41,137 nt of DNA, taken from an uncultured Porphyromonadaceae bacterium. Lineage in GTDB: Bacteria; Bacteroidota; Bacteroidia; Bacteroidales; Muribaculaceae. Shown in pieces: positions 7,063-34,540 of the stretch (its first letter is position 1; every line of letters begins with the position of its first letter). The DNA lies in assembly GCA_947177405.1 (NCBI GenBank), contig CAMWUJ010000024.1:1-41137 (forward strand), in the 5' to 3' direction. The position numbers were made by a program, and so were the translations under genes. The notes beneath the pieces are model-generated. The model was not told the DNA's origin, did not search any database, and saw only the letters and a program-made list of their open reading frames with translations.

Positions 7063-7100
7063 TCTATAACGAAAACCAAACGAAACCAAATTCAGATACT

Positions 7101-7925: not shown

Positions 7926-7933
7926 TATCTTTG
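7926..7933 (+). promoter_or_regulatory. -7 element of the rimP-nusA-infB promoter
   Basis: TATCTTTG matches TAnnTTTG. The A+T-rich stretch before it contains poly-A tracts. Transcription should begin near 7940, just ahead of the leader hairpin. Confidence 0.7.
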
Positions 7934-7944
7934 CAAAAGAATTC

Positions 7945-7976: not shown

Positions 7977-8029
7977 AGAATGGCTTTCCCGAAAGGGAAA
8001 CGCAAAAAAGAAAAGAGAGGATAACTTCA

Positions 8030-8494: not shown

Positions 8495-8555
8495 CCCACT
8501 TAACCGCGGATTTAACCGCGATATTCAATAAAGAAAAAACTACAAAATCGCAATA

Positions 8556-9803: not shown

Positions 9804-9879
9804 TCGTGAGACCGTACACCGACCCCCGACGTCACACCCCCGGGTGGCGCCCGGTAACAATATCAGGGATTGGATAGAG

Positions 9880-9897
9880 GAACGCCCCGGGGCGTTC
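9880..9897 (+). promoter_or_regulatory. Perfect 18-bp GC palindrome between nusA and infB
   Basis: GAACGCCCCGGGGCGTTC reads identically on both strands. It lies 36 bases before infB in a GC-rich spacer that also contains GGGTGGCGCCCGG (9842-9854). There is no T run, so it is more likely an RNA-stability or pausing hairpin than a terminator. Confidence 0.4.
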
Positions 9898-9933
9898 GTC
9901 CCGGGGAAATCCTTCAGTATCTAAAACCGTTTT

Positions 9934-12900
9934 ATGCGTACAAAAATAAGCAAAATAGTAAAAGACCTTAACGTCGGACTCAGCACCGCTGTGGAGTTTC
10001 TCCGTAAACACAATATCGAAGTTGAGGAGAATAATCCCAATGCACGGATTGACTCCCACGCTGTGGAGATGCTCACAAAGGAATTCAGCACCGACAAGGA
10101 TGTGAAGAAAAGAAGCATCGATATCATCAACACCAAGAAAGAGAAGAAGAACGACAGGGTACAGACCAAGGAGGTAAAGACTGAGATTCCCCAGCCCAAG
10201 ATACTCGGGAAGATCGATCTTTCAAGCGCAGGCAAGCCGCAGACTCCGCAGCCTAAAAAGGAGGAGAAAAAGGAAAAGAAGGCCGAGATGAAAGAGGCTG
10301 CTCCTTCGAATACAGTAAAGGCGGCACCGGCTCCCAAGCCGGTGGAGAAGCCGGTGGAGAAAAAAGAACCGGCTCAGGAAAAGAAGCCGGCTCCTGAGCC
10401 CGCACGTGATTCCTCTGCCAAGCAAGCCTCGGCCGCCGGGGAGAAGCCGGCTAAGGAAACACCCAAGATTACCGAAGCTCCTGTCGTAGCCCAGACTCCT
10501 GCCGCTACGGAGAAGAAAGCCCCGGCAAAGGAGCCTCAGACAAAGAATGAGTCAACTACAAAAGATAATTCAGTGAACAATAACCAACATCCTGAGAAGA
10601 AGGAGAAATCCGCAACCCCCCGGACCGAATCACAGAATACGTCCCAGCAGCCGGAAAGCAAGGTGTTCCGCCTGTCGGCTCCGGCACAGGGTCCGGAATT
10701 GAAAGTCGTAGGCAAGATCGACCTCGCATCGCTTAACCAAGCCACCCGTCCGCGCAAGAAAAGCAAGGCGGAGAGAGCACGTGCCGCCCAGGGCAATGAC
10801 TCCGACCGCAAGAAGCGCAAGAGAATAGGGAAGGAGAAGGTAGATATCGAAAAAGCCGCAGCACAGCCCGGCTTCGGGTCCGACGGGCGCAAGAAAGACC
10901 GCGGAGGAAATCAGGGCGGAGGCAATAACCAGGGCGGCCGCAATAACGCCGGGCATGGTGGCCAGCGCAACGAAAACAAGGGAGGAGGACGCAACCGCGG
11001 ACGCAACCGTGATGATCGTCGTCAGAACAAGCCCGAGGTTAACGCCGAAGATGTGCAGAAGCAGGTGAAGGAAACCCTTGCCCGTCTCACCAACAAGACC
11101 ACAAAGAAGAGCGTGAAATGGCGTAAGGAGAAACGTGAGGAGATGCACAACCGTGAGCTCGAGAACCAGCAGCGTGAGGCTGCCGAGAGCCGCGTGATCA
11201 AAATCACGGAGTTTGTCACCGCCAACGACCTCGCCAACATGATGGATGTGCCCATCAACAATGTAATCGCGACCTGCATGAATCTGGGTGTGATGGTCTC
11301 TATTAACCAGCGACTCGACGCCGAGACAATCAATATCGTGGCTGAGGAATTCGGATTCACCACTGAATTTGTGAGTGCCGATGTGACAGAGGCTATCGAG
11401 ACCGTAGAAGATAACGAGGAGGATCTCGAGGAGCGTCCACCTATTGTGACCGTGATGGGTCATGTGGACCACGGTAAGACTTCACTGCTCGACTATATAC
11501 GCAAATCCAATGTGATCGCCGGAGAGGCCGGAGGTATAACCCAGCATATCGGAGCATACAATGTCAAGCTCTCCGACGGACGCCGAATCACATTCCTGGA
11601 TACTCCCGGTCATGAGGCATTCACCGCTATGCGTGCGCGTGGAGCCAAGGTGACCGACCTTGCAATCATCATCGTGGCTGCCGACGACGACGTGATGCCC
11701 CAGACAATCGAGGCGATCAACCATGCTTCTGCCGCCGGTGTGCCGATGGTATTTGCTATCAACAAGATAGATAAGCCAGCCGCAAACCCTGACAAAATCA
11801 AGGAGGAACTTGCCAACATGAATTATCTCGTCGAGGAATGGGGTGGTAAATATCAGAGTCAGGATATCTCTGCCAAGAAAGGTCTTGGTGTGGAGGAACT
11901 TATGGAGAAGGTGCTTCTTGAAGCCGAGCTCCTCGAACTCAAGGCCAATCCTAACCGTAACGCCATCGGATCAGTGATCGAATCCTCGCTGGATAAGGGT
12001 CGTGGTTATGTGGCTACGGTGCTCGTGCAGAACGGTACGCTCCATGTGGGCGACGTAATCCTTGCCGGAACACATTTCGGAAAGGTGAAAGCGATGTTCA
12101 ATGAGCGTAACCAGCGTGTCACCGAGGCCGGTCCTTCCACTCCGGTCCTTATCCTCGGACTCAACGGTGCTCCCACCGCGGGCGACACCTTCAATGTGCT
12201 CGACACTGAGCAGGAAGCACGCGAGATCGCCGGAAAACGCGAACAGCTACAACGTGAGCTTGGCCTCCGCACCAAGAAGCGTGTTGGACTTGAGGAGCTG
12301 GGCCGTCGTAGGGCTCTCAACGACTTCCATGAGCTAAACCTTGTGGTGAAGGGAGATGTGGACGGATCAATCGAGGCACTTTCAGATGCTCTGCTAAAGC
12401 TGTCCACTCCCGAGGTGCAGGTCAATGTGCTCCACAAAGGTGTGGGAGCTATCTCCGAATCTGATGTGACTTTGGCAGCCGCTTCCGACGCTATCATAAT
12501 CGGCTTCCAGGTTCGTCCTTCAGCAGCCGCTAAACGAGAGGCCGAGAAAGAGGGAGTCGAGATTCGTCTATATTCGGTGATCTATAAAGCCATCGAGGAG
12601 GTGAAAGATGCTATGGAGGGTCTCCTTTCTCCCGAAATCAAGGAAGAGATCACCGGTACGGCTGAAGTGCTCCAGACCTACCATATATCCAAGGTCGGCA
12701 CTATTGCCGGTGCTATTGTGCGTGATGGTAAGATCAAACGTCAGTCGAAAGTGCGCGTGATCCGCGACGGCATCGTTATCTATAGCGGTGAGCTCGGTTC
12801 GCTCAAGCGCTTCAAGGATGATGTCAAGGAAGTGGTATCGGGTTACGACTGCGGTCTTTCCGTGCAGGGTTACAACGATATCCGCGAAGGCGATATGATC

Positions 12901-15907: not shown

Positions 15908-15999
15908 TAAATCGGGGCACATGCCTGAAAATTAACTTGGATAAAACAGTCAACGGCCAAGGCCGGTGATAATTATAGAAAACAAAAAAACAGAAAGAT

Positions 16000-16221
16000 A
16001 TGTATTGGACATTAGAACTTGCGTCAAAGCTTGAGGACGCACCCTGGCCTGCAACCAAGGAAGAACTTATTGACTTCGCCATGCGCAGCGGCGCGCCGAT
16101 GGAGGTGATAGAGAATCTCCACGAGATAGAAGATGAGGGAGAAATTTATGAAAGTATAGAAGACATCTGGCCCGACTATCCCTCCAAAGACGACTTCTTC
16201 TTCAACGAAGAGGAATATTAA
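16000..16221 (+). CDS. DUF2795 domain protein
   Basis: The 73-aa acidic protein begins MYWTLELASKLEDAPWPATK and contains ELIDFAMRSGAP and an acidic, aromatic tail. This pattern is strongly conserved in Bacteroidota DUF2795 proteins, whose function is not known. It is the last core gene before the integrase, so the element junction probably lies just behind it. Confidence 0.85.
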   Translation: MYWTLELASKLEDAPWPATKEELIDFAMRSGAPMEVIENLHEIEDEGEIYESIEDIWPDYPSKDDFFFNEEEY

Positions 16222-16247
16222 AGAGAAATTTTTAGTTAAGCATCTGA

Positions 16248-16293
16248 AAATCAATGGCTAAACAAAAATTAGTTTGTTTGGCCATTGGTTTTT
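16248..16293 (+). terminator. 19-bp stem terminator of the DUF2795 gene
   Basis: Left arm 16248-16266 and right arm 16273-16291 pair along 19 positions, with two G-U wobbles and a six-base loop. T residues continue to 16293. The right arm contains the first copy of the AGTTTGTTTGGC repeat, so terminator and repeat array overlap. Confidence 0.8.
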
Positions 16294-16364
16294 AATGGTC
16301 TTAAATGGTGTAGTTTGTTTGGCTAAAATACGTTATTTTGGAGGAAAATCCGAGTTTGTTTGGC
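16271..16364 (+). repeat. Three direct repeats at 41-bp steps before the integrase
   Basis: AGTTTGTTTGGC occurs at 16271-16282, 16312-16323 and 16353-16364, each exactly 41 bases from the last. Copies two and three extend to AGTTTGTTTGGCTAAAAT. The spacing is about four helical turns, which suits same-face binding by a recombinase or a regulator. The third copy ends 11 bases before a -7 box (TACCTTTG, 16375-16382) for the integrase. Confidence 0.75.
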
Positions 16365-16374
16365 TAAAATTCAT

Positions 16375-16382
16375 TACCTTTG
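16375..16382 (+). promoter_or_regulatory. -7 element of the integrase promoter
   Basis: TACCTTTG matches TAnnTTTG and lies 58 bases before the integrase start, immediately after the third direct repeat. The promoter could therefore be repressed or activated by whatever binds the repeats. Confidence 0.6.
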
Positions 16383-16440
16383 CACTGGTTTGTGAGTATT
16401 GCATTAAACCCGATTATTAACCTCAAAACAGACTATTAGA

Positions 16441-17799
16441 ATGGGAAGACCTAAACGACTCTATCCACTTGGAAAATATCGCCTCCGTATCCGAGGTTCT
16501 ATAGACTCAAGCAAGGCTTATCTTGTCGAACTTGAATATACATGGAATCGTCAGATTGTAAGAAAGGGTATGAATATTTTCGTTAAAGTTGGAGACTGGA
16601 ATGAAAAACTGAATAAGGGCCGCGGGGGTGTGAAGAACAGTTACGGACCGGAAGCAAATCGCATCAACGCATTGCTTCTTGGCCGAGTAGATAAGATAGA
16701 TGGGCTTCTTGCTGAATACTCCCAGCGAAACCCGAATCAAATAACAGCACAGCTGATTAATGATTTTCTATCTGACAAACCTTTGATTCGACAGGACAAG
16801 GGTAAGGATTTTATTGAGTTTGCTACTGAGCGACTGGACTCGGATTATTCTCGTAATCGTATTGGAAGGAGTCGTTACATGAATGGTAAGAGCGGATTGA
16901 ATATTTTCCAGACATTCCTACGTGCTACTAAGAAAGGGACATATAAGACTGATAGCATTTATGTAGGAGAAGTATCTGTTGAGCTTATCGATGAATACAT
17001 CAGTTGGAGGAGGGATGTGAAGTTGAATTGTGATGCTACTATCAATCATTCGTTAACTCCAATACTTAAGGCATGTGCGTATGCTGCTGAGTTGAGGCTG
17101 ATAGAGCCCTCAATAAACGCCCGCCTTCAGGATATGAGAATTGCTCCTAAGATTGCCTTATCAATCGATGAAAGTGAGTTTGATGGAAAAAGCCTTAGTC
17201 AAGAAGAGTTTGGTAAGTTGGTGGAATTTTACAGTTGCGATAAAGAGACTCGTCGTAAGGAATTTATTGAGATGTTTCTTTTCGCTTTCCATGCCTGTGG
17301 ATTAAGGGTAGTGGATGTGATGACTCTTCAATGGGGTCATATTGACTTTGAGAAGAAAGAACTCCGTAAGGTGATGGTCAAAACCAATAAGAGGCATGTC
17401 ATTCCTCTTAGTGAACCGGCTATAGATATTTTGAAGAAATGGAAGGAAAAGAGACCTGATGCGAAGTATGTTTTTGATTTGGTAAAGGATGAACTTGATA
17501 TAGACAATGACGAAAGCCTTTACCGGGCAAGAAACAGTGCAACCAAGTGTATAAATCAATCCCTAAATGTTGTTGGGGAAAAGTTAGGGCTTAAATTTAG
17601 TTTAACTATGCATGTAGCGCGCCATACCTTTGCAGTCTTAGCTCTCAACAATGGATTATCAATGACTGTCGTCAGTCGGCTTCTTGGTCATGCAAGTACC
17701 GATATTACCGAAAAGGTCTATGCCAAGTTTCTTCCTGAGACACTTTCGGTAGAAATGGCTCGAATTAATTCCGAATTAGAAAAGTATCGGTTATTTTAA
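16441..17799 (+). CDS. Tyrosine recombinase (site-specific integrase)
   Basis: The 452-aa protein has an N-terminal arm-binding part (1 to about 110), a SAM-like core-binding domain (about 120-230) and a catalytic domain. The active-site set is visible: Arg289 (ACGLRVVDV), His391 and Arg394 (HVARHTF), His417 (GHAS) and Tyr427 (KVYAKF). It resembles integrases of Bacteroidota conjugative and mobilizable elements. It is the first gene after the core genome, and the following genes are A+T-rich cargo, so it probably catalyses integration of this island. No tRNA gene lies beside it; the attachment site is probably in 16222-16440. Confidence 0.92.
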   Translation: MGRPKRLYPLGKYRLRIRGSIDSSKAYLVELEYTWNRQIVRKGMNIFVKVGDWNEKLNKGRGGVKNSYGPEANRINALLLGRVDKIDGLLAEYSQRNPNQITAQLINDFLSDKPLIRQDKGKDFIEFATERLDSDYSRNRIGRSRYMNGKSGLNIFQTFLRATKKGTYKTDSIYVGEVSVELIDEYISWRRDVKLNCDATINHSLTPILKACAYAAELRLIEPSINARLQDMRIAPKIALSIDESEFDGKSLSQEEFGKLVEFYSCDKETRRKEFIEMFLFAFHACGLRVVDVMTLQWGHIDFEKKELRKVMVKTNKRHVIPLSEPAIDILKKWKEKRPDAKYVFDLVKDELDIDNDESLYRARNSATKCINQSLNVVGEKLGLKFSLTMHVARHTFAVLALNNGLSMTVVSRLLGHASTDITEKVYAKFLPETLSVEMARINSELEKYRLF

Positions 17800-17951
17800 A
17801 ATCAAAATGGGTATAAAAGAGTCTTAGGAGAATCCCATAGTATTAAACGTAAACAAAACTGAGAATTTTAATCATTCCATTGTGTTGGAATATATGGACT
17901 CCAATGGTAATGGAATAGTTAAAACCCATTTTGCAGCGACTATGAGAGAAA

Positions 17952-17996
17952 TACACTTTTGTGTTAGGCATAAGCAGATTAGTTCTATTATCTTTG
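17952..17996 (+). promoter_or_regulatory. Palindromic operator plus promoter of the ThiF-like gene
   Basis: The operator TACACTTTTGTGTT (17952-17965) is followed, exactly 28 bases after its TTTT centre, by the -7 box TATCTTTG (17989-17996). The operator centre then falls near -41 from the expected start, the usual site of class II activators. The same layout recurs at 18841, 19595 and 25176. Confidence 0.75.
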
Positions 17997-18019
17997 CATG
18001 TATTTTAATATAGATATAC

Positions 18020-18775
18020 ATGAACAGATATAATAGAAATCGAATATATGTGGGCGAAGAAGAGCAAGAAAAAGTGCGTGAGACAAAGATCTTGCTAGGC
18101 GGAGCAGGTATTGGAAGCATTATCGCTGAATGTGCCCTGCGCTTCGGCTTTGAAGATATTGTGATTGTTGATGGTGACAAGGTTGAATTGACAAACCTTA
18201 ATCGACAAAATTATGAAAACCGAGATATAGGGAAATATAAAGCAGAATGCCTTGCGAAACGGTTAAAACGCATAAATCCCAAGGCAAATATTCAGTTCCA
18301 CAACGCTTACATTGATAAAGATAATGTAAGGGAATTGCTTAATGGTGTCAAAATAGCAATCAATGCCCTTGATTTCAAAAGTGAAATTCCTTTTGTATTC
18401 GATGAATTATGTTCGGAGCGAAAAATACCGGTTCTACATCCCTATAATTTTGGTTGGGGAGCCTTTCTTACAATTGTTAAGCCGGGAAGTTATCAACTTA
18501 AAGAACTATCCGAAGAATGGTCGGGATTTGAGTTAAAAATGGCAGAATTTGTGGCTCGTTACTGTATGTTTTGGAATATACCTAATAGATGGCTTGATGA
18601 AGTAATTGATGCTTATAAGAGAGAGTCGGAGGGGCTTCCTCCTCCTCAACTTTCTATTGCTTCATGGGTCGTGGCAGGACACTGTGTAAATGCAATTTTT
18701 GACATTATAACCGGAAAAGAGGTGAAATATTTCCCAAAATTTTATTTCTCATCCTTAAGGTGCGATATAACATAA
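18020..18775 (+). CDS. E1-like ThiF/MoeB/HesA family adenylyltransferase
   Basis: The 251-aa protein has the E1 nucleotide-binding fold: ILLGGAGIGS (residues 25-33), acidic Asp51/Asp53, the LTNLNRQ motif with Arg62 for ATP, and INALD (114-118). Members activate a C-terminal carboxylate with ATP, as in ThiS or MoaD activation or in peptide modification. There is no neighbouring ubiquitin-like carrier protein and no obvious CxxC zinc pair. It is driven by its own operator-promoter and sits just before the acyltransferase gene, so a shared small-molecule pathway is likely. The substrate is unknown. Confidence 0.82.
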   Translation: MNRYNRNRIYVGEEEQEKVRETKILLGGAGIGSIIAECALRFGFEDIVIVDGDKVELTNLNRQNYENRDIGKYKAECLAKRLKRINPKANIQFHNAYIDKDNVRELLNGVKIAINALDFKSEIPFVFDELCSERKIPVLHPYNFGWGAFLTIVKPGSYQLKELSEEWSGFELKMAEFVARYCMFWNIPNRWLDEVIDAYKRESEGLPPPQLSIASWVVAGHCVNAIFDIITGKEVKYFPKFYFSSLRCDIT

Positions 18776-18809
18776 TATTATATCAACCTTTCAATAGACG
18801 ACAAAAATA

Positions 18810-18825
18810 CTACACAAAAGTGTAG
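18810..18825. promoter_or_regulatory. Upstream palindromic operator of the acyltransferase gene
   Basis: CTACACAAAAGTGTAG is a 6-bp-arm palindrome around AAAA. Its centre is 39 bases upstream of the second operator at 18841-18872, giving the gene tandem sites. Confidence 0.7.
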
Positions 18826-18840
18826 ATTTTTGCTTTATAA

Positions 18841-18894
18841 TAGCGGTATTACACAAAAGTGTAATACCGCTACTTCTATTTGGGTATAATTTTG
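18841..18894 (+). promoter_or_regulatory. Extended palindromic operator and promoter of the acyltransferase gene
   Basis: Perfect 14-bp arms TAGCGGTATTACAC and GTGTAATACCGCTA flank AAAA (18841-18872). The -7 box TAATTTTG (18887-18894) begins exactly 28 bases after the AAAA centre. The gene starts 20 bases later, so the leader is very short. Confidence 0.75.
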
Positions 18895-18913
18895 CAGAAA
18901 AATTGCAAAATTT

Positions 18914-19540
18914 ATGGAGTCAAAAATTTGGACATGTGATAAGTATGCTATTTTTCAAGTTGGCAATGACCGAATTCATGAAATAGTTGAATTTGTAGTA
19001 ACTCAAAACTATGGTCACCATACATCACATTCACTTCCTATTATAGCTAAAAGTGAGATTGAAGACATTTGCAAAGAGGAAATCTCCTATTCAAAAGATT
19101 CAACATATTTTATTGTCCGGGATAAAGTTGGGAAATTGATCGGGAGCATAAGGGTCTTCCGATGGGACAAGCAGACGCCAATGCCTATGCAGAAGATATT
19201 CCACATTTCCCCATTAGAGATGGTGGAGGATACACCAGCTACTTCCTTCTGGCATATTGGACGATTTGCTATTGATTCAACCTCCGACTTCTCTACCATC
19301 ATATTGTTCAAGCAGCTCATGGCACTCGCTGTTTCTCTGATACTGGGGGAGGATGACAGTTATATGATTGCAGAAACCGACAAACATCTTCTACGGGTAA
19401 TGAACGCCCTCGGCATCGAGACGCATCAGATAGGCAATCCGCTCATTTACCTTGCATCCGAGACAATCCCTGTGTATTCAAGTAAAAAAGGACTAACCAA
19501 GTTCTACCAAAGTTGTTATCCCCTTCTTGACGTATCATAG
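18914..19540 (+). CDS. LuxI/FeeM-like N-acyltransferase
   Basis: This 208-aa protein looks like the GNAT-fold family that includes acyl-homoserine lactone synthases and N-acyl amino acid synthases. Supporting features are KVGKLIGSIRVFRWD (71-85, like the G-x-x-RL strand of LuxI), SFWHIGRFAID (111-121, like E-x-SRFAV) and MIAETDKHLLRVMNALGIET followed by HQIG (151-174, like the LuxI 'LLRRAGW...RLG' helix). The Glu of E-x-SRF is replaced by His114, so the amine substrate may differ from homoserine lactone. Two palindromic operators precede it. A decayed duplicate exists at 24669-25121. Family-level call only; the product is unknown. Confidence 0.65.
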   Translation: MESKIWTCDKYAIFQVGNDRIHEIVEFVVTQNYGHHTSHSLPIIAKSEIEDICKEEISYSKDSTYFIVRDKVGKLIGSIRVFRWDKQTPMPMQKIFHISPLEMVEDTPATSFWHIGRFAIDSTSDFSTIILFKQLMALAVSLILGEDDSYMIAETDKHLLRVMNALGIETHQIGNPLIYLASETIPVYSSKKGLTKFYQSCYPLLDVS

Positions 19541-19556
19541 AAGACATCAATCATAC

Positions 19557-19639
19557 TACACAAAAGTGTATAAATGATTTAAAAATCAAGGAAATACCCT
19601 TTTGTGTACCATACATGTATGGAGTTCTGATTAATTTTG
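19557..19639 (+). promoter_or_regulatory. Tandem palindromic operators and promoter of the split lipoprotein gene
   Basis: TACACAAAAGTGTA (19557-19570) and TACCCTTTTGTGTA (19595-19608) have centres 38 bases apart. The -7 box TAATTTTG (19632-19639) begins exactly 28 bases after the second TTTT. The second operator has one deviant half-site base (C for A). Confidence 0.75.
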
Positions 19640-19692
19640 CACAGTAATAAATGAGATGAAGTCGACAACATCGAAATCAAAAAACAGAAAAA

Positions 19693-20663
19693 ATGAAATT
19701 AATAACTAAGCCAATCAAAGCAATGGCATATATATTGGCCATATGCTCTCTTGCATCTTGTAACAATGAAGATGCGCCCACCTCAGTTTCTCAAGCAGAA
19801 CAGAATCCTGACGAATTCCTTAACATAACCTATGAGGGGGAACTGTATAGGAATATCCCTACCACCTATGACAAGAATGGTGAATTCGTGTTTCTTGACG
19901 ATGAGTTCGCAAAGATATATGAAGAGAACCTGAAAGGTTCCACCACTCTCTCGATTCATCTAATCGATGAATCATCCATCGAGATGTTCAAAACACTTGA
20001 GGACAATCTTCTCGCACATGGAATCGACCCTATCACTATTCCTGTTGAGGAGGGTGCCTCTACTAGAACAGGAGTGTCATCAGAAGAGAATTTCCTCGGT
20101 ACGGTAGATCTTTGGGATGATAAAGGATTTAAGGATACTCATTGGCAGTTTGGTATACTGACTGCCTCTAACCCTAAATGGTTCTAGTGGTCGGTTAAGA
20201 ATATTAGAAGTATTATAGGTAATTTTTTGCTTTAATAGTATAGATATTTTGTGCTAATTATAATATTATACATCCTTTTTCTTGTCAAAAAAGCAACCAT
20301 TCTTATGACTACAATAACCGTTTTTTCGTTTTCCGACCACTAGAACCTAAATGGGTAGAGAATCTCAAATCACCGTATAAGTTTAACGATAAATGCTCTT
20401 CGCTAATATTGACCAATTATCTCCCTAATGACGCATCAAAAGATCTGAATATGGGATCCTACACACTTAAATACTCAGAGGCAACGTTGGTATTTATTGG
20501 GTATGATGATCGAGGATATACGGATCGAACCTTCACAGCTTTAGCTAACCCAGGTGAAACTAAACAATGGCGAGAACTCAAGAATTTCAATGATAAGATG
20601 AGTTCATTGAAGCTTTTCTTTGCTAAGACTGGTGTCTTTACGACCGAAGGAGCCTCTAAATAA
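19693..20663 (+). pseudogene. Lipoprotein gene split by a MITE
   Basis: The 5' part encodes a lipoprotein (lipobox LASC after a hydrophobic run) and stops at 20185-20187 inside the inserted element. The 3' part resumes in a shifted frame at about 20346 (PKWVENLKSPYKF...). Removing the 164-bp insert plus the 9-bp target duplication (173 bases) restores one reading frame of about 265 aa. The last ~100 residues contain YDDRGYTDRTF and FNDKMSSLKLF, reminiscent of a beta/gamma-crystallin-like motif; that is tentative. It may still make a 164-aa truncated lipoprotein. It is transcribed from the operator-promoter at 19557-19639. Confidence 0.85.
20182..20345. mobile_element. 164-bp MITE with 13-15 bp terminal inverted repeats
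   Basis: The ends are TTCTAGTGGTCGG and CCGACCACTAGAA. The direct repeat CCTAAATGG flanks the element (20173-20181 and 20346-20354). An alternative reading is 15-bp ends starting GG with a 5-bp TAAAT duplication. The inside is A+T-rich and has no ORF, so it must be mobilised by a transposase encoded elsewhere. It interrupts the lipoprotein gene. Confidence 0.88.
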
Positions 20664-20676
20664 ACCATGCAAGAGG

Positions 20677-20773
20677 GAGAATGTTGTTAAGTCTTATTCA
20701 TATCTAACAGTATGTATTAAGCTTATAGTTAGGACTGAGATAACAACATTCTCTCTGTTTAGACTCATTTTTT
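20677..20773 (+). terminator. Large inverted repeat after the split lipoprotein gene
   Basis: GAGAATGTTGTTAAGTCTTA (20677-20696) pairs with 20730-20753 (TAGGACT, a 4-base bulge, then TAACAACATTCTC). A six-T run follows at 20768-20773. The loop is long (about 33 bases), and the T run is offset, so it is an imperfect terminator. Confidence 0.55.
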
Positions 20774-20790
20774 ATAATACAAAATCTATT

Positions 20791-21216
20791 ATGCGTACAG
20801 TATATTCTTTCCTATCATTCATAATTCTCTTAATTATGTCATCATGCAGCAATCAGGATGAACCCTCTCCTGACAATGAAGGTAGTCCACGTGATTGGAC
20901 TTATGGAAAAAATCAAGTGCAATTCTACATCGACAATGTGGAGCAGACATCCGTTTCAGAAATCACCGTTAGGTCATTGCAGCTGGAAGGCTCTGGTGAC
21001 AACGATGTATTCCCTTGGTATGATGCAACCCTTAAAGTCAAGGGCCTACTACCCAAAGGTAAGGTTTTCAATATTCAGGTAATGGCTGATGTGGAAAGAT
21101 TTGAAGGTTCCACCGTTTACGATGGAGTTGAATACAATGTTACGGGGGAATATACGGGTAATCCTTTTGAACACTATAAAGATATGGGTATAATCATATA
21201 TCTTGTGAAAAAATAA
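20791..21216 (+). CDS. Small lipoprotein of unknown function
   Basis: I start this gene at the ATG at 20791, which opens a lipoprotein signal (MRTVYSFLSFIILLIMSSC). Sequence further upstream lies in the terminator hairpin. The 141-aa product is predicted to be beta-rich, with no recognised domain. It ends 7 bases before the TonB-type receptor gene, so it is probably the first gene of a three-gene operon with it and the DUF4249 gene. It could be a surface partner of the receptor. Confidence 0.7.
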   Translation: MRTVYSFLSFIILLIMSSCSNQDEPSPDNEGSPRDWTYGKNQVQFYIDNVEQTSVSEITVRSLQLEGSGDNDVFPWYDATLKVKGLLPKGKVFNIQVMADVERFEGSTVYDGVEYNVTGEYTGNPFEHYKDMGIIIYLVKK

Positions 21217-21223
21217 TACGGGT

Positions 21224-23485
21224 ATGGCACGTTGGGCTATAACAATATCTTTTGCTTTGGCTTTTACCTGCTCGTATGCGCAATCTCCGGCCGACACTTT
21301 ACCGAATCAGACTCTCGATGAGGTGATAGTGTCGGCTACCGGTGCACACCGTAACCTACGAGCAGCCGAGATGGGGAGACATGTATTGGGCAAGGATGCA
21401 ATTATGAAACTACCTGTTCTTTTCGGAGAACCCGACGTGGTAAAGGCCTTACAGACTCTTCCAGGTGTATCTCAAGGTGTGGAGGGATTTACGGGGCTAT
21501 ATGTGCATGGTGGTGACAATGATCAGAATCTTTTTTTATATAATGGCTTACCACTTTACCATGTAAGTCACTTGGGAGGGATTTTCTCATCCTTCAACGT
21601 CTCGACAATCCGTAATGTGGATTTCTTCAAGTCTGCTTTTCCGGCAAGGTTCGGAGGCCGCATATCAAGTATCACAAACATAAACATGAGCTCTCCGGAC
21701 TTTGAAAAATACACAGGCAAGTTCACCATCGGTCTATTAGCGGCAAACGGTTATATCTCGGGACCAATAGTCAGAGATAAAGTAGCGTTCAGCGCAGCCG
21801 TAAGACGTTCATGGATTGATGTAGTCGGTTTACCGGCTTTGGCCATTGTCAATGCCATACAGAAAAAGAACGGAAAGAAGACTATCGCTGCCTATAACTT
21901 CACGGACTTCAATGCACGTATTGACTGGAAACTTGGAGAAGGAAAGCTTTATGCAATAGGCTACTACGGTCATGATTATCTCAAAATAGGAGACAGGGAA
22001 TTTGAGTCAACCGACAAGACAATGATTGTCAATCCTGATGGTTCAATTGGTTCTGCAACTCCGGATGAAGACCAGACCCGGTTTTTCGATGAGAATACGA
22101 ACAGACTCTCCTGGGGAAACTGGGGAGTATCTCTCAACGCGGACTACCGTGTTGGACAAGGCAACCTCAATACAGTGGCTTACTATACAAACTATGCGTC
22201 TCATTACAGCCAGAAAAGCGAGCATCAGACTGATCTTTCAGACGATACCACTTACGGTTATACCTTCAACAGCACACGTAACTCCATCGCAGATATAGGT
22301 ATCAATACCCAGTATATTCAACAGTTTGAGGAGCTATATCTACTTAAAACCGGGATTGGCTACGTACATCACAATTATCACCCTGAAGGCTTACAGAATG
22401 AATATGCCGATGCAGAAAGAAATTGGAATGACAATAATGACAACCCGTCGGTCAGATCAAATGAAGTTTTCGCCTATATCGACAATCTGTTTAATTTCGG
22501 AAGTCGGGCATCACTTGACGTAGGCCTGAGGTTTGTAAACCATCAAATTCAGGGCAAATCCTTCCCTCGCCTTGAACCGAGGGCATCCTTAAGGGTAAAT
22601 GTAAGCGACGATTATAGTATAAAGGCATCATACGCATGTATCAACCAATTCGTACAGCAGGTTTCAAGCAACTATATAAATCTACCCACAGATCTTTGGC
22701 AACCCGTCGGAAAAGGAGCACAGCCGTTGGGTAGCGATCAGTATTCTTTAGGTTTCTACGGCAATCTCCCCAAGGGAATGTATTTCTCTGTGGAAGGATG
22801 GTATAAGACAATGCGCAATCTTGTTGAATACCGAGAAGGTATATCATCACTCAATCCGGGCCTTGACTGGGATGAGAAAACCACCACCGGCAAAGGCTGG
22901 GCTTATGGCGTGGATCTCAGCGTGACAAAGGAAGTCGGCAGAGTCACAGGCACGGTTAGCTACGGACTTATGTGGAACTGGCGTAAGTTCGCGGCACTTA
23001 ACGATGGTATGAGATTCCCTGCAAAGTTTGATAACCGTAATAAGATCAATATCAATGCTACCTACAAGCTTAATGACAGGATGGAGTTCAATGCAGGTTG
23101 GACTTATATGACAGGCAACCGGCTGACATTATCGCTCTATAACTATGACGAACCAGGTGATAATTTTCCGGACGCTCCTTCGACAGGTGTTGGCACATCA
23201 GGTTTCGACTGGGAACAGGCTTCCGGCTTGGATTACTATTCGGAAAGGAATAACGTCCGCTTCCCGGCATACCACAGGCTTGACATAGGCATGAGCATAT
23301 ACAAGCGTCTTAAAAACGGAAGAAGGACAATATGGAACTTCAGCCTATATAATACCTATTGCCGCATGAACACCATGACCATACGAAAAGATGACTTTGT
23401 GGGGTTCGGTGATGAAAGCCGGTCATTCCAGAAGTTTGCGCTTATTCCGGTAGTGCCATCCGTTTCCTACACATACGAATTTTGA
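21224..23485 (+). CDS. TonB-dependent receptor-like outer-membrane protein
   Basis: The 753-aa protein has a signal peptide (ends CSYAQ), a TonB-box-like 'TLDEVIVSATG' (about 30) and a plug domain ('VVKALQTLPGVSQGVEGF', 'YVHGGDNDQNLFLYNGLPLY', 'FFKSAFPARFGGRISSI'). A long beta-barrel ends in the C-terminal aromatic strand VSYTYEF. It lacks the usual N-terminal carboxypeptidase-like domain. Pairing with a DUF4249 lipoprotein downstream is a common Bacteroidota arrangement, usually for uptake of an unknown ligand. Here it may import a molecule linked to the acyltransferase module, which is inference. Confidence 0.88.
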   Translation: MARWAITISFALAFTCSYAQSPADTLPNQTLDEVIVSATGAHRNLRAAEMGRHVLGKDAIMKLPVLFGEPDVVKALQTLPGVSQGVEGFTGLYVHGGDNDQNLFLYNGLPLYHVSHLGGIFSSFNVSTIRNVDFFKSAFPARFGGRISSITNINMSSPDFEKYTGKFTIGLLAANGYISGPIVRDKVAFSAAVRRSWIDVVGLPALAIVNAIQKKNGKKTIAAYNFTDFNARIDWKLGEGKLYAIGYYGHDYLKIGDREFESTDKTMIVNPDGSIGSATPDEDQTRFFDENTNRLSWGNWGVSLNADYRVGQGNLNTVAYYTNYASHYSQKSEHQTDLSDDTTYGYTFNSTRNSIADIGINTQYIQQFEELYLLKTGIGYVHHNYHPEGLQNEYADAERNWNDNNDNPSVRSNEVFAYIDNLFNFGSRASLDVGLRFVNHQIQGKSFPRLEPRASLRVNVSDDYSIKASYACINQFVQQVSSNYINLPTDLWQPVGKGAQPLGSDQYSLGFYGNLPKGMYFSVEGWYKTMRNLVEYREGISSLNPGLDWDEKTTTGKGWAYGVDLSVTKEVGRVTGTVSYGLMWNWRKFAALNDGMRFPAKFDNRNKININATYKLNDRMEFNAGWTYMTGNRLTLSLYNYDEPGDNFPDAPSTGVGTSGFDWEQASGLDYYSERNNVRFPAYHRLDIGMSIYKRLKNGRRTIWNFSLYNTYCRMNTMTIRKDDFVGFGDESRSFQKFALIPVVPSVSYTYEF

Positions 23486-23490
23486 ACGAA

Positions 23491-24483
23491 ATGAAAAAGT
23501 CAGCATACAGTATTTCAATTTTTCTTGTATCCGGTTTCTCAGTATTGTCTACCGGATGCTATCAGGATATTGACCTTGATAGATACAAGGGGCAGAACGG
23601 AGAGCATCTGTTGACACTGAACTCCATCGTTAATCCGGATTCCACCATAGCAGTAGCTGCAACCAGAACATATTTCTTTTCCGATATACATAATGAAAGG
23701 AACTATGTAAAGGATCTTGACATACGGCTTATGATAAATGGAGAATACCGAGGTTCACTTGAGTTTGATCCAAACAGCAACCTTTACCGATCTCATATCA
23801 AGCCAAATATAAACGACGTTGTGACACTTAACACACAGTATGGTGATTCAATTATATCGTGTAAGGATATTATACCCGAAACTGTAAGGATTGAGTCGAT
23901 CGAGGTAAGTAGGAAAGGTCCGCTTTCCGTATATACTGACAGGGACTATATTCTCACATACGAGATAACTTTCATTGACCCCACCGGAAAGGACAACTAT
24001 TATTTCCTGCACTACGACACGTCCGATTTTCGCAAAGGCGTGCCTATGGGCGAACGCGATTATACATATGAGTATGTATTCCAGCAACTCGCCAATCGTG
24101 TAAACGCAAATATCCCGGGTTGGGAACCGTATTCACCTTATGGGTTGCCATTCACCGATTACGGTATAGATGGAATAACACATACCTTGACCGTAAGGGA
24201 GATTGTTCAGGGAGGTAACGGCCGGGATCTCACTAAATACTCCACTATGAACCGAAAGTTCAAGTTATTCTCAATTTCCAAAGACTATTACCAATATCTG
24301 CTCAGTGTCCTTTACAATGACAAAGAATCAGAAGGTCTCCACGGAGGTATGATAGATCTCGGCATATCGGAACCAATTAAATATTTCTCCAACATAAAAG
24401 GAGGTGTCGGTATTTTTGCAGCTTATTCTCTTGATGAAGCAGAGACAGATATAATGTCAATTACTGGGAAATTTCCCAAATAA
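23491..24483 (+). CDS. DUF4249 family lipoprotein
   Basis: I choose the ATG at 23491; the in-frame TTG at 23482 overlaps the previous gene's stop. The lipobox is STGC (Cys23). The 330-aa protein shows the DUF4249 layout: an early 'LTLNSIVNPDSTIAVAATRTYFFSD' strand pair, 'VKDLDIRLMING', 'YRSHIKPNINDVVTLN' and a C-terminal beta domain ending 'GIFAAYSLDEAETDI'. DUF4249 proteins accompany TonB-type receptors and are probably surface partners. Five bases separate it from the receptor gene. Confidence 0.85.
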   Translation: MKKSAYSISIFLVSGFSVLSTGCYQDIDLDRYKGQNGEHLLTLNSIVNPDSTIAVAATRTYFFSDIHNERNYVKDLDIRLMINGEYRGSLEFDPNSNLYRSHIKPNINDVVTLNTQYGDSIISCKDIIPETVRIESIEVSRKGPLSVYTDRDYILTYEITFIDPTGKDNYYFLHYDTSDFRKGVPMGERDYTYEYVFQQLANRVNANIPGWEPYSPYGLPFTDYGIDGITHTLTVREIVQGGNGRDLTKYSTMNRKFKLFSISKDYYQYLLSVLYNDKESEGLHGGMIDLGISEPIKYFSNIKGGVGIFAAYSLDEAETDIMSITGKFPK

Positions 24484-24668
24484 CCGTATCTATGGAGATT
24501 CCGAAATTGAGAATAAAGCCTTAATGTAAAAATCAAAAGTAAACCTATGGCTTATATGATGACGTTCTCAAGGTTTGAATTAAGAGATTATGTGTTATTA
24601 TAGAATTTATATACCGATATTGTACGATTATCACTGCATCTGATTCCTATCCTAAAAAGAGTCTTCCT

Positions 24669-25121
24669 TTTCAAAAAATTCGACATATTTATTTGTCCGT
24701 AATAAAGTGGGATAATTGATTGGGTACGTATGAGTAGTCAGATGGGACAAACGGACCCCTACCCCCATGCAGAAGATTTTTCACATATCTCCGCTGAAGA
24801 AAGTCGGTTTTACCCCGGCAACCTCCTTCTGGCACATCGGACGATTCGCCATTGATTCCGCCTCTGGCTTCTCCGCCGTAACATTGTTCAAACAACTCAT
24901 GACCCCTTGCTGTGGAACCCATATTGCGGGAAGATGACATTTATATGATAGCGGAGACAGATAGCCATCTTCTTAGGGTTGTGAACACACTTGGTATCGA
25001 GACCAGAAAGATAGGCAATCCGCTTATCTACCTTGCATCCGAGACAATTCCGGTGTGTTCAAGTAAAAAGGGGCTAACCAAGTCCTACCAAAGGTGTTAT
25101 CCCCTTCTTGCCGCATCGTAG
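24669..25121 (+). pseudogene. Decayed second copy of the LuxI/FeeM-like acyltransferase
   Basis: From 24669 the DNA follows the intact acyltransferase gene from its residue about 60 onward, but with frameshifts. The last part reads in frame from about 24942 (DIYMIAETDSHLLRVVNTLG, then ETRKIGNPLIYLASETIPV). The first 58 codons are missing. The similarity continues through the stop into the tandem operators and promoter, so the duplicated unit is acyltransferase 3' part plus regulatory region. Bases 24484-24668 show nothing recognisable. Confidence 0.85.
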
Positions 25122-25137
25122 CCCACATCGGACATAC

Positions 25138-25220
25138 TACACAAAAGTGTATAAATTGCTTTACAGTCAAAGAAATACACTTTTGTGTTAGTCTACTTTT
25201 GAGTCCTAATATTAATTTTG
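25138..25220 (+). promoter_or_regulatory. Tandem palindromic operators and promoter of the outer-membrane protein gene
   Basis: TACACAAAAGTGTA (25138-25151) and TACACTTTTGTGTT (25176-25189) have centres 38 bases apart. The -7 box TAATTTTG (25213-25220) starts exactly 28 bases after the second TTTT. The geometry is identical to 19557-19639. Confidence 0.78.
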
Positions 25221-27605: not shown

Positions 27606-27767
27606 ATGGGAAACAAAAGTCTGGAGAACCTTGCCAAGGGATTAAATCCTCAACCCTTGCAAGATGAATGTTTCGTTTTGAACGACGAACAGGCGGAGGA
27701 TATATATGGTGGAGACAACACGTATAATAACTGTTCCTTCACATATAACAATTGTAACCCCGCATAA
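27606..27767 (+). CDS. RiPP precursor peptide, GG-Bacteroidales type
   Basis: The 53-aa peptide is easy to miss because of its size. The leader runs MGNKSLENLAKGLNPQPL and on to FVLNDEQAEDIYGG, ending in a double glycine (residues 35-36), the standard cut site of C39 peptidases. The predicted core is DNTYNNCSFTYNNCNPA (17 residues) with two copies of TYNNC. It is immediately followed by a radical SAM/SPASM maturase, glycosyltransferase-like genes and a C39 ABC exporter, which is the expected context for natural-product precursors of this type. The two Cys and the Tyr/Asn/Thr residues are likely modification targets. Confidence 0.85.
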   Translation: MGNKSLENLAKGLNPQPLQDECFVLNDEQAEDIYGGDNTYNNCSFTYNNCNPA

Positions 27768-27887: not shown

Positions 27888-29237
27888 ATGAATTTGAAAA
27901 AATCTAAATATCTTTTCTACTCTAAAAGATTGGTTGGTGAAAAACAGTGGGTTTATTTACTTTTTTCTGGCCGGTCAGCAAAAAATATAATGGTATCTAA
28001 GGAGGTATATGAAAAAGTACTCAATAATGAAATTGAGTCGCTTTCAGTTTCAACAAAAGAACTATTCATAGAGAATAAGATTTTGGTCGAACAAATGGAA
28101 GATGAGTATGCAGAGGTTAATAGGGAAAACAGGAATTTATTGAATAATATTAATAGAGGAGACCTATATATATCTATTCAACCCACTGCCGTATGTCAAC
28201 TTGCATGTGATTATTGTGGGCAGGCACATTCTAAGAAATTTCTTAACGACAAGCATATTGATGCTATCGTTAATCGTGTTAGTGAAAAATTGAGCTCAGT
28301 AGAATTCGACAGTTTGCAAATTGGATGGTTTGGGGGAGAACCACTATGTGCTCTCAAAAATATGCTCAATCTGAATAAACAGTTAAAAGCCATTGCCTAT
28401 TCTCATAACATTCAATATGGCGGGCAACTAACAACAAATGGATACGCTTTATCTCCTGCCTTATATTTGAGAATGAAAAATGAGTTTAACATGCGCAAAA
28501 TTGAAATAACACTGGATGGTTCTAAGGAGTTTCATAATCAACGTCGATTCAAAAGTAATGGCGAGGGATCCTTCGATAGGATTTTTCAAAATATTATATC
28601 AATAGTATCGTCTCCGGCATACGATTTTAAAGTTTGTCCTATCAGTATAAGATGTAATGTTGATGAACGAAATGTCAACGGGGTAATGCCGTTGCTCAAA
28701 CTTCTTGTTGATCATCAATTGCAGAACAAGGTCAACTTCTATACAGCTCCTGTTGTATCTTGGTCTAATAATGGAGCCGGCAGCAAGAGTGGACAATCTT
28801 TACTAGGACTATATTCAACAGAATTCATCGCTTTTATGATTGAATATGGATTCAATGTTGCTGTTCTTCCAAAAAGATCTGCTCCTTATAGATGTATTGG
28901 AACGGACGAACATGCTGAAATGTACGATGCAGAGGGATACATTTTTGACTGCTCCGAGACATCTTATTCTGATTATTATGCTGAACAAGGTTACATACTT
29001 GGCAATGTCATGTATGAACACAATATAGATAATAAGGGAAGCAAAATTAGAGCAGTGCCCGAAAAACTACTAAATGGGGAAATTGTAGAGTGTCGTAATT
29101 GTAAATTCTACCCACTCTGCGGTGGCATGTGTCCTTTGGCTCTGATAGAGGGAACACCACGCTGTCCTTCCTTTATCTATAATATCGAAGATCGGATGTT
29201 TTTGGATTATATTGAAAGAAATAGAAGACATAAATAA
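27888..29237 (+). CDS. Radical SAM/SPASM peptide maturase
   Basis: The 449-aa enzyme should modify the adjacent precursor. The [4Fe-4S] motif is C103-x3-C107-x2-C110 (VCQLACDYCG), followed by the SAM-binding GWFGGEPL block. The C-terminal SPASM domain carries further Cys residues, including CRNCKFYPLCGGMC and a following CPS, for auxiliary clusters. The first ~90 residues (YLLFSGRSAKNIMVSKEVYE...) resemble a small PqqD-like recognition module. The order of precursor first and maturase next matches the GG-Bacteroidales system. Likely chemistry is thioether or carbon-carbon cross-linking in the TYNNC repeats, which is inferred. Confidence 0.9.
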   Translation: MNLKKSKYLFYSKRLVGEKQWVYLLFSGRSAKNIMVSKEVYEKVLNNEIESLSVSTKELFIENKILVEQMEDEYAEVNRENRNLLNNINRGDLYISIQPTAVCQLACDYCGQAHSKKFLNDKHIDAIVNRVSEKLSSVEFDSLQIGWFGGEPLCALKNMLNLNKQLKAIAYSHNIQYGGQLTTNGYALSPALYLRMKNEFNMRKIEITLDGSKEFHNQRRFKSNGEGSFDRIFQNIISIVSSPAYDFKVCPISIRCNVDERNVNGVMPLLKLLVDHQLQNKVNFYTAPVVSWSNNGAGSKSGQSLLGLYSTEFIAFMIEYGFNVAVLPKRSAPYRCIGTDEHAEMYDAEGYIFDCSETSYSDYYAEQGYILGNVMYEHNIDNKGSKIRAVPEKLLNGEIVECRNCKFYPLCGGMCPLALIEGTPRCPSFIYNIEDRMFLDYIERNRRHK

Positions 29238-29248
29238 GAAGATTCTGT

Positions 29249-30694
29249 ATGAACCTCATACAATCATATTTCAATAAAACAATCACCTGTAATAATATGA
29301 ATTATTCAGGAGGATACATGTCAGCTACTATAAACTGGTTATCCATGGCATATAGTTGCTTACTCCTCAAAAAATATCATCCAACTGATAATTTAATATT
29401 TTATGGAAATGAGGATATGGTTAGGATATTAGGAGATCTTTTTCAATTGCCATATGACGATTATAAAATAATTGAGGCAAATGATGAGTTTTCTACTTGG
29501 TTTTATTGTTGGCCCAAGATCTTAACTTATGAGGCTCAGCAAAATCCATTCATACATGTAGATATTGATATATTTATGTGGGGTACTCTTCCGTCATCAT
29601 TAATGGAAGCTCCCTTAATTGCTCAACATTTGGAGAATGATTCAACTTTTTATTTGAATGTATACAACCAGATGAAGGAAGATAACATATGCTTTCCTGG
29701 CTTCATGGAGGTTTGTTATGATAATAATGTTATCAACTCATATAATGCCGGATTATTAGGTGGTCATGATTTGGCATTTTTTCAAGAGTATGTTTGGGAA
29801 ATTCGAAAATTTTTAGAATTAAACAAGTCTCAGATAGCCATATCTGATCGAAAATTTTTATATAATGTGGTTTTTGAACAATGGCTATTCTACGGCTTGA
29901 CGAGAAAATATAATAAGTCGGTCTGCACATTTTATAAAAAGCCTATTAAGAATTTTAATATGGAAGAGGCCCATGTGCCACTTCAGATACTATCCTTAAA
30001 AAAGCTTGCTTATTTGCATGTAATGGAATATAAAAGAAATATTGCATGCAATCGCTTCATTGTTTATAAGATGCGCTCGGAATTCCCAGACGTATATGAT
30101 CGAATTTTATCCATCTGCAATCATAAGGGAATTAAGAGTAGTCTATATTATAACTCCCCTGCGAGTATTAATAGTTTCTTTGATTCAAATGCGAAAAATG
30201 AGTACTCTAGCAACTCTAAAAGTTTATCAGAAATAGATGAACTTGAATATAAAAAAAACGAAGCCGAAGATCTTGAAATCTTAGAAACCCATAGCGAAAA
30301 ACGTAATGAATTGATTAAGTTGCAAGACAATCATAATATATTAATAACTGATATAAGGAATGGAAACTTACGAAACCCCAGTCCTATGCTATCATTAAAC
30401 CCACTATTGCAAGTTTCAGAAATATCCGATTTGTTATTAAGAAAGTTTCTTAATAACAGAGAAAATGAATTGGCATCAGATTGGATACTTCTAAAACTAT
30501 ATAATCCACTGTTCAATACCATTGACAAGTTTTTGTGGACTAAACAAAAGTATGAACTTTTACTTTCTTTGCTCAAGGAAGAGAATATCGGTGAAATACT
30601 TACATATAAGCCCTCGCTATCTAAGCCGCTTAAGGAAGTAAGAGGCTTTATTACTCAAAGCATATTCGATGGAATTATAACAATAAGATTATGA
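29249..30694 (+). CDS. Glycosyltransferase-like protein (DUF6734-like), first copy
   Basis: The 481-aa protein is A+T-rich and lies 11 bases after the maturase. Residues about 20-200 look like a GT-A fold: a sugar-nucleotide-binding start (SATINWLSMAYSCLLLKKY), a DxD motif in FIHVDIDIFMW (about 100-110), and 'NAGLLGGHDLAFFQEYV' near 170. After about residue 300 comes a long charged helical linker and a C-terminal part of unknown role. It is paralogous to the next gene. I infer glycosylation of the peptide or of another substrate; the family name is from memory. Confidence 0.65.
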   Translation: MNLIQSYFNKTITCNNMNYSGGYMSATINWLSMAYSCLLLKKYHPTDNLIFYGNEDMVRILGDLFQLPYDDYKIIEANDEFSTWFYCWPKILTYEAQQNPFIHVDIDIFMWGTLPSSLMEAPLIAQHLENDSTFYLNVYNQMKEDNICFPGFMEVCYDNNVINSYNAGLLGGHDLAFFQEYVWEIRKFLELNKSQIAISDRKFLYNVVFEQWLFYGLTRKYNKSVCTFYKKPIKNFNMEEAHVPLQILSLKKLAYLHVMEYKRNIACNRFIVYKMRSEFPDVYDRILSICNHKGIKSSLYYNSPASINSFFDSNAKNEYSSNSKSLSEIDELEYKKNEAEDLEILETHSEKRNELIKLQDNHNILITDIRNGNLRNPSPMLSLNPLLQVSEISDLLLRKFLNNRENELASDWILLKLYNPLFNTIDKFLWTKQKYELLLSLLKEENIGEILTYKPSLSKPLKEVRGFITQSIFDGIITIRL

Positions 30695-34339: not shown

Positions 34340-34540
34340 ATGCATGCATCAAATAATAATCACCAGAGCGAGCTTCGGTCAGAAAAAGTCCGTAAGCTCA
34401 TTGGAGAGATTCCCTCATCTTTAGTAATATGGGGTACTATTATAATCATAATTATTTTTCTTGGGTTATTGGCAGCCGTTTGGTTCTTGCCATATCCATA
34501 TTCGAATGGGGAATCAATTTTTGAACATTTCTTGACCTAA
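34340..34540 (+). CDS. Short HlyD-like membrane protein, possibly truncated
   Basis: The 66-aa protein starts 2 bases after the exporter stop. It has a charged N-terminus, a single membrane segment (VIWGTIIIIIIFLGLLAAVW, about 30-49) and PYPYSNGESI. This is close to the first residues of HlyD-type periplasmic adaptor proteins, which normally run to 350 aa or more. It ends cleanly at a stop. It is either the remnant of a lost adaptor or a purpose-built small exporter partner; the sequence alone cannot decide. Confidence 0.6.
   Translation: MHASNNNHQSELRSEKVRKLIGEIPSSLVIWGTIIIIIIFLGLLAAVWFLPYPYSNGESIFEHFLT

Follow-up and report, generated by a model that had tools for sequence, protein, structure and literature searches.

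An operator at fixed spacing and its probable PAS-LuxR activator in a putative N-acyl-cyclolysine-type signalling locus of Bacteroidota

Four promoters with one operator spacing

The window, by which we mean the whole stretch of 41,137 nucleotides analysed here, contains four forward-strand promoters in which a palindrome, TACAC-N4-GTGTA with at most one mismatch, is followed at exactly 28 nt from its 4-nt centre by a TAnnTTTG box, as the sequence-only reading had claimed. The first (17952–17996) comprises operator TACACTTTTGTGTT (17952–17965, one mismatch) and box TATCTTTG (17989–17996) and precedes the gene of a 251-aa ThiF/E1-like enzyme (18020–18775, +), while the second (18850–18894), with an exact palindrome (18850–18863) and box TAATTTTG (18887–18894), precedes an N-acyltransferase gene (18914–19540, +). 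At the third (19595–19639), operator TACCCTTTTGTGTA (19595–19608, one mismatch, TACCC) and box TAATTTTG (19632–19639) stand before a predicted operon that opens with the 5' part of a lipoprotein gene (19693–20187) and continues with genes for a TonB-dependent receptor plug protein (21224–23485) and a DUF4249 protein (23491–24483; all +). The fourth (25176–25220), with TACACTTTTGTGTT at 25176–25189 (one mismatch) and TAATTTTG at 25213–25220, leads into a predicted operon for an outer-membrane beta-barrel protein (PF14905; 25242–27542), a 53-aa ORF with a double-glycine leader and a two-Cys core that is likely a RiPP precursor (27606–27767), a radical SAM enzyme (27888–29237), two DUF6734 proteins (29249–32163), and a C39-peptidase ABC exporter (32145–34337; all +). 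The 53-aa ORF matches no family and has a counterpart in the related locus L032; for the radical SAM enzyme, NCBIfam ranks peptide maturases first, though none of them reaches its cut-off, and the exporter scores above the Pfam cut-off and below those of the NCBIfam peptide-export models.

Three of the four operators are preceded by a further exact palindrome, the second at a distance of 39 nt (18811–18824, +) and the third and fourth at 38 nt (19557–19570 and 25138–25151, both +); the first has no such partner, again as claimed. The further suggestion of a regulon copied as a unit is correct for promoters three and four, each part of a 524-column cassette; the two cassettes are 77% identical, and the second of them carries a broken second acyltransferase copy (24647–25115, +). 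The first and second promoters instead match the arrangement in relatives.

Because the palindrome alone at up to two mismatches is little above chance (19 in the window versus 10.3 in dinucleotide shuffles, a modest excess equalled by 1 of 100), we used exact, one-mismatch, and composite patterns instead. At one mismatch, the palindrome occurs seven times (shuffle mean 0.44, largest shuffle 4), and the composite of operator, 28 nt, and TAnnTTTG occurs four times versus none in 100 shuffles. The 3.27-Mb genome (91.6% complete, 142 contigs) contains four exact palindromes, all in the window. At up to two mismatches, the composite is found in it at six places, namely the four window promoters and a divergent pair, CACAC-N4-GTGTG, that adjoins the genome's second, close copy of the regulator gene discussed below; a reversed control pattern gives two matches.

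Conservation of the spacing and promoter class

A search of relatives for the operator at this distance, the check proposed with the sequence-only reading, bore the spacing out. An offset of 28 nt was found in 23 of 26 acyltransferase loci from Muribaculaceae, Prevotella, and Parabacteroides, in 31 of 40 regulator loci lacking the acyltransferase, hand-picked for genus spread from the listed regulator matches and including some genomes already positive for the composite pattern, and in 11 of 18 phylum-wide loci, for which 21 other genomes had matched and the three with the weakest E-values were left out. Other offsets occur in at most five, three, and two loci of the respective sets, with the exception of offset 35 (12/26), so that 28 is dominant in the first set and unrivalled in the other two. 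Counted per regulator, the locus of 61 out of 66 includes an operator spaced at exactly 28 nt; under the same rule other offsets reach at most 12 (offset 35) or 8 (offset 36), with a median of 1, and for the remaining five regulators no operator was found in the locus by the rule YAC-N8-GTR at 28 nt. Distant groups retain this spacing although their spacer sequences differ. Exceptions are L028, with 27 nt before the ThiF-like gene, and L024, whose third operator has no TAnnTTTG at 28 nt. The loci lacking the acyltransferase show a further peak at offset 33, which in 15 of its 25 matches is due to a real operator at 28 joined to an A-rich flank. In the 18 phylum-wide loci, symmetry alone does not single out offset 28 (10 loci at 28, 11 at 24); the YAC-N8-GTR arms do, these having been picked after the operators were seen.

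In Bacteroides, TAnnTTTG is by convention centred at −7, and on this numbering the operator centre would presumably fall near −41. Of 87 promoters, 9 have TTG at the −33 position, whereas shuffled spacers would give 11.6, so there is no excess. In all three locus sets the operator keeps a fixed place by the −33 region without a strong −33 element, and the class II activator position proposed earlier fits this single, strictly kept offset, as far as sequence can indicate. YAC-N8-GTR, 28 nt from the 4-nt centre to TAnnTTTG, provides a rule for finding regulon members by computer, to be used with caution, as a one-mismatch search of 397 genomes finds the reversed control in 19 as well.

The candidate activator and the signalling circuit

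The PAS-LuxR protein suspected in the sequence-only reading (38617–39381, −) very probably is the activator of the four promoters, and would be of AclR type, judged by linkage and by domain and fold matches. In 22 of 25 related loci its gene is flanked by the ThiF-like gene on one side and the acyltransferase gene on the other; it is placed elsewhere in L023, L122, L047/L048, and the window, where it is about 19 kb from this usual place. Moreover, the operator arms vary together with a single residue position of the recognition helix: an A-bearing arm accompanies 12 of 12 Q-type and 4 of 14 K-type regulators (Fisher P 2e-4, three regulators without an operator left out and phylogeny ignored by the statistic). 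Other pairings of helix and arm have exceptions at L185, L192, and L122. The GerE helix-turn-helix is the sole Pfam family above cut-off in the protein, and Pfam detects no autoinducer-binding domain such as the N-terminal part of AHL-binding LuxR proteins. In a fold search with the regulator model, 3clo ranked best and VqmA next (14–16% identity, whole-chain TM-scores 0.31–0.34); the N-terminal part matches mostly PAS domains, and RhlR, SdiA, and TraR appear only as weaker whole-chain matches.

Both putative signal biosynthesis genes have an operator in front. The ThiF-like protein, a probable AclA-type cyclase, has intact adenylation motifs and full-length homology to PDB entries 9egb, 9egc, and 9egd (E about 1e-91), which we take to be AclA. 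The acyltransferase, a probable acyl-lysine synthase, has a GNAT fold nearest the LuxI-type synthases. Its best profile matches among PDB sequences were designed repeat proteins, which we took as spurious, so that a fold search of the model was needed; LasI, TofI, and BjaI ranked 1–3, with other GNAT enzymes close behind and FeeM at rank 13. We found no relatives of the acyltransferase in viral contigs; the L044 acyltransferase, interrupted by an internal stop, was excluded from the protein set.

An N-acyl-cyclolysine (ACL) signalling system of Bacteroidota has reportedly been described by Linares-Otoya et al. (Nature 2025), and is said to comprise the cyclase AclA, a lysine N-acyltransferase, the LuxR-type AclR, autoinduction, and co-localised operons for secreted molecules. 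A review places ACLs in Bacteroidota, with wide distribution in gut and oral samples. The window circuit very probably is such a system and drives the cluster of double-glycine-leader peptide, radical SAM enzyme, and C39 exporter; it is not of an unknown kind, for it fits the ACL system as reported. In common are the ThiF-like enzyme, the N-acyltransferase, and the LuxR-type regulator, which is linked in most related loci and VqmA-like in its model, all beside secreted-peptide genes in gut and oral Bacteroidota, while the displaced regulator and the broken second acyltransferase copy set the window apart. The LuxI/LuxR (AHL) systems share the synthase fold, the GerE-type regulator, and the operators before the synthase gene; we nevertheless reject an AHL identity because of the PAS-like sensor domain and the extra ThiF-like enzyme, and the 14-bp operator differs too. 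VqmA, the DPO receptor of Vibrio, is a PAS-LuxR quorum-sensing receptor and, after 3clo, the best-matching architecture, but identity and TM-scores are low and it is not known to have a linked LuxI-like synthase. The N-acyl amino acid synthase FeeM shares the GNAT fold and a weak sequence match, but only 14–15% identity over the aligned fold, with a Pfam score below cut-off.

We consider it highly probable that a cell-density signalling circuit of N-acyl-cyclolysine type uses the four sites as class II activator operators. The shared switch sequence would most likely allow a protein that senses the signal to switch on signal synthesis together with a peptide-secretion cluster. In our model, the LuxI/FeeM-like enzyme would acylate an amino acid (reportedly lysine in the ACL system), and the ThiF/E1-like enzyme would activate the carboxylate with ATP and cyclise the product. 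The PAS-LuxR protein would bind the cyclised product and then, as a dimer, the 14-bp palindrome, from where, centred near −41, it could contact RNA polymerase at promoters with a TAnnTTTG −7 box and no enriched −33 element; the second operator 38–39 nt upstream probably takes a second dimer. Its targets would be the two signal-making genes, giving autoinduction, the lipoprotein/TonB operon, and the operon of the outer-membrane protein, peptide, radical SAM enzyme, and exporter.

The alternative that survives best, which we nonetheless regard as unlikely, is that the regulator is a repressor, or responds to some ligand that the neighbouring enzymes do not make, in which case there would be no quorum-sensing circuit. 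The family's regulators mostly have no acyltransferase nearby: the regulator occurs in 132 of 397 family genomes (15-row profile, E ≤ 1e-30) and the acyltransferase in 12 of 397 (single sequence, E ≤ 1e-10, a search whose reach differs from that of the profile), with no acyltransferase in any of the 40 fetched regulator loci at E ≤ 1e-4, and the adenylation half is missing from the short ThiF-like partners. However, a site near −41 and no enriched −33 element are in keeping with activation, the synthase genes themselves bear operators, and the ACL system as reported speaks for quorum sensing. That another host regulator binds the palindrome, with the PAS-LuxR gene a mere neighbour, is less probable still. 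Many dimeric regulators could use a palindrome of 14 bp, and the PAS-LuxR gene is about 19 kb away in the window; against this reading, that gene adjoins the operators in 22 of 25 related loci, one helix position co-varies with the arms, and the divergent composite pair stands beside the other regulator copy. Chance repetition, or the copying of a single mobile repeat as the duplicated cassette might suggest, is contradicted by the empty shuffles and by a spacing kept across differing spacers, and we give it practically no weight. The ACL-type circuit with the PAS-LuxR protein as its activator thus provides a probable activator and operator for a recently described signalling system of gut and oral Bacteroidota.

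Regulators without a nearby synthase

In the sampled family, a regulator seems far more often to lack a neighbouring synthase than to belong to a complete circuit, which raises the question of listening without sending. Tentatively, we envisage one fixed promoter geometry and a partly readable operator code, with most sampled Muribaculaceae-type members lacking a synthase and often having a shortened ThiF-like partner; these might listen to neighbours' signals, or the dead enzyme might act on the regulator as a ligand-binding adaptor or antagonist. The operator rule and the abundance of such circuits are possibly new. Our literature searches found no paper related to the operator letters, and none joining FeeM, ThiF, and LuxR with Bacteroidetes or AclR with Bacteroidota, or citing 9egb–9egd.

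At up to one mismatch, the composite pattern occurs in 73 of the 397 family genomes, only 9 of which are among the 12 with the acyltransferase; some of the 73 are short-ThiF circuits and some are chance matches. The short ThiF-like genes are under purifying selection (median dN/dS 0.18, 22 pairs). Unlike the short-ThiF circuits, three of the 40 loci (L157, L179, and L191) look like modules of the complete type minus the acyltransferase.

Operators and their fixed spacing

We found the palindrome TACAC-N4-GTGTA seven times in the window at up to one mismatch (shuffles: mean 0.44, largest 4); four of these copies are exact, and the genome (3.27 Mb, 91.6% complete) has no exact copy besides them. 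Four of the seven lie exactly 28 nt, counted from the four-base centre, before TAnnTTTG, upstream of the genes for a ThiF-like protein (site at 17952-17996), an acyltransferase (18850-18894), a lipoprotein (19595-19639), and an outer-membrane protein (25176-25220); the second, third, and fourth sites each have one of the remaining three palindromes further upstream, at 39, 38, and 38 nt, respectively. The composite pattern of operator, 28-nt offset, and box did not occur in 100 shuffles. This recount of palindromes and spacing reproduces the coordinates and counts of the sequence-only reading, and the arrangement in the window is real.

A scan of genome contigs with the acyltransferase gave 25 loci from Muribaculaceae, Prevotella and its relatives, Parabacteroides, and others, and with the window counted in, the 26 loci hold 39 distinct 45-nt sites; locus counts are not independent because several loci are near-identical or of one genome (e.g., L032-L034; L025 and L026). 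In most of the 26, the operator precedes both the ThiF-like gene and the acyltransferase gene, and it also follows the latter wherever the sequence extends far enough. With arms taken as YAC-N8-GTR and the distance left free over 5 to 65, offset 28 occurs in 23 of the 26 loci, and the runners-up are 35 (12/26), 36 (5), and 46 and 16 (4 each). Offset 35 stems from 12 Prevotella-group loci (L029, L032-L041, and L045), where the box is on the opposite strand and faces the regulator gene on its strand; there, 35 nt is a second fixed spacing. The loci without such arms at offset 28 are L024, L028, and L031, the first two of which carry other-armed operators at 28 nt. Exceptions are L028, with 27 nt rather than 28 before the ThiF-like gene, and L024, whose third operator has no TAnnTTTG at 28 nt; the distant loci L043 and L044 have CACAC/CACCC arms, again at 28 nt. 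Neighbouring operators (up to one mismatch; 37 pairs, 30 loci) are 39 nt apart in 24 pairs, 38 in 12, and 37 in one.

At up to one mismatch, the composite pattern is present in all 12 genomes reached through named loci, with 37 of its 51 matches inside fetched acyltransferase loci; a reversed control pattern matched once across these genomes. The Parabacteroides genome has two matches, neither of them in its module, where the sites differ from the pattern by two mismatches.

The PAS-LuxR protein as candidate activator

In 22 of the 25 loci, the ThiF-like and acyltransferase genes flank a minus-strand PAS-LuxR gene that is divergent from the acyltransferase gene; of the other three, L023 has the regulator elsewhere, and contig ends truncate L031 and L042. 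The regulator is also placed elsewhere in L122 and L047/L048, and it stands at the far end of the island both in the window (38617-39381, minus strand) and in L023, from genome G177 of another genus. We inspected 69 loci, three of which lack a full regulator; of the 66 regulators in the others, 61 are accompanied in their own locus by an operator at exactly 28 nt. With any other offset, the count is no higher than 12 (offset 35), with a median of 1. The recognition-helix position after KKYR co-varies with the arm, an A-bearing arm accompanying Q in 12/12 cases and K in 4/14 (Fisher P 2e-4, kinship ignored; three more regulators had no operator). Further trends, SRRR/SARR with outer base C and TYKR with TACAC/GTGTA, both have exceptions, namely L185 (TARR, outer T), L192 (TYKR, outer C), and ACKR regulators with TACCC or TACAC arms. 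Linkage, spacing, and co-variation support the earlier suspicion that this protein is the activator, and make it a well-supported candidate for that role at the operators. TTG occupies the -33 slot in 9 of 87 promoters versus 11.6 expected from shuffled spacers, and a -33 element is therefore not enriched. The regulator model (pLDDT 89.5) matches 3clo (Bacteroides), then VqmA.

Probable relation to N-acyl-cyclolysine signalling, and synthase-less loci

The window's ThiF-like protein (18020-18775, plus strand) keeps the GxGxxG and NLNRQ adenylation motifs. Along its entire length it matches PDB 9egb, 9egc, and 9egd, entries that we infer to be AclA structures. The acyltransferase (18914-19540, plus strand) scores weakly and below cut-off against FeeM (E 2.8e-4, Pfam) and the exosortase acyltransferase family; its model (pLDDT 90.8) ranks LasI, TofI, and BjaI first to third, other GNAT enzymes from fourth, and FeeM 13th. 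In N-acyl-cyclolysine (ACL) signalling, lysine is reportedly acylated and then cyclised by AclA in an ATP-dependent step, and the product is said to be sensed by AclR, which controls co-localised operons for secreted molecules. The window's module fits each of these points that is visible in sequence. Very probably, the system is of this published kind. A 2026 review (citing Linares-Otoya et al., Nature 2025) places N-acyl-cyclolysines in Bacteroidota and describes them as widespread in gut and oral samples. Literature searches, which did not reach Linares-Otoya et al., Nature 2025, found neither the operator rule nor synthase-less circuits.

The regulator profile matches 132 of 397 sampled genomes of the family (E <= 1e-30) and the single acyltransferase sequence 12 of 397 (E <= 1e-10); profile and single-sequence searches differ in reach, the latter still reaching relatives of 33-36% identity. 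None of 40 fetched regulator loci (~2.5 kb each side, some ended by the contig) has an acyltransferase at E <= 1e-4, 25 have a ThiF-like match, and 31 carry YAC-N8-GTR arms at offset 28 versus at most three at any other. Phylum-wide, such arms occur at offset 28 in 11 of 18 loci, drawn from 21 other genomes matched, versus at most two at other offsets; many of these 18 do carry an acyltransferase. We extracted 23 ThiF-like neighbours, a single full-length one (251 aa) and 22 of 123-192 aa, two of these with internal stops; all 20 short proteins aligned lack the adenylation half. With a median dN/dS of 0.18 (range 0.12-0.26; 22 pairs, dS 0.1-1.2), the short proteins are likely dead enzymes retained for another role.

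The window's own genome holds a second circuit (L118, G000:C96, 8560-10045) with a 45%-identical PAS-LuxR regulator, a divergent CACAC-N4-GTGTG pair alongside, both operators at 28 nt, and a ThiF-like protein of 192 aa that lacks the adenylation half.

Output genes, duplicated cassette, and island

The fourth promoter derives from a duplication, 24665-25188 being a 77%-identical copy of 19085-19607 that holds a broken acyltransferase (24647-25115) with stops inside. L022, a related locus, has two open acyltransferase genes at 6660-10695 with an operator pair after each, and the cassette has therefore been duplicated elsewhere too. Downstream of the fourth promoter follow the outer-membrane protein, a 53-aa ORF (27606-27767) with a double-glycine leader and a two-Cys core, a radical SAM enzyme, two DUF6734 proteins, and a C39-peptidase ABC exporter. 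The 53-aa ORF has no family match, and all NCBIfam matches of the output genes are below cut-off; in L032 (Prevotella), the operator is followed by a counterpart in which the genes are ordered similarly and a separate GG peptide is encoded. The output resembles a secreted peptide that is modified, and it may be a bacteriocin. A short likeness, seen by eye, links 34340-34540 to the start of the HlyD-like partner after the exporter in L029 and L032.

Window DNA at 15999-19576, which includes a tyrosine recombinase (protein 98% identical), is 89.7% identical to that of G177; such identity with another genus, together with the recombinase, suggests a mobile island. No tRNA genes were found in the window. 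An AAA ATPase and HNH pair (35530-38539, minus strand) has its best PADLOC matches to PDC-M62A/B and weaker ones to Septu PtuA/PtuB; the island of G177 lacks this pair between the genes that flank it here. Where the lipoprotein ORF (19693-20187) reaches its 3' end, there is a short element (20182-20345) whose termini are 13-bp inverted repeats (TTCTAGTGGTCGG) and which is bounded by a 9-bp direct repeat (20173-20181, 20346-20354).
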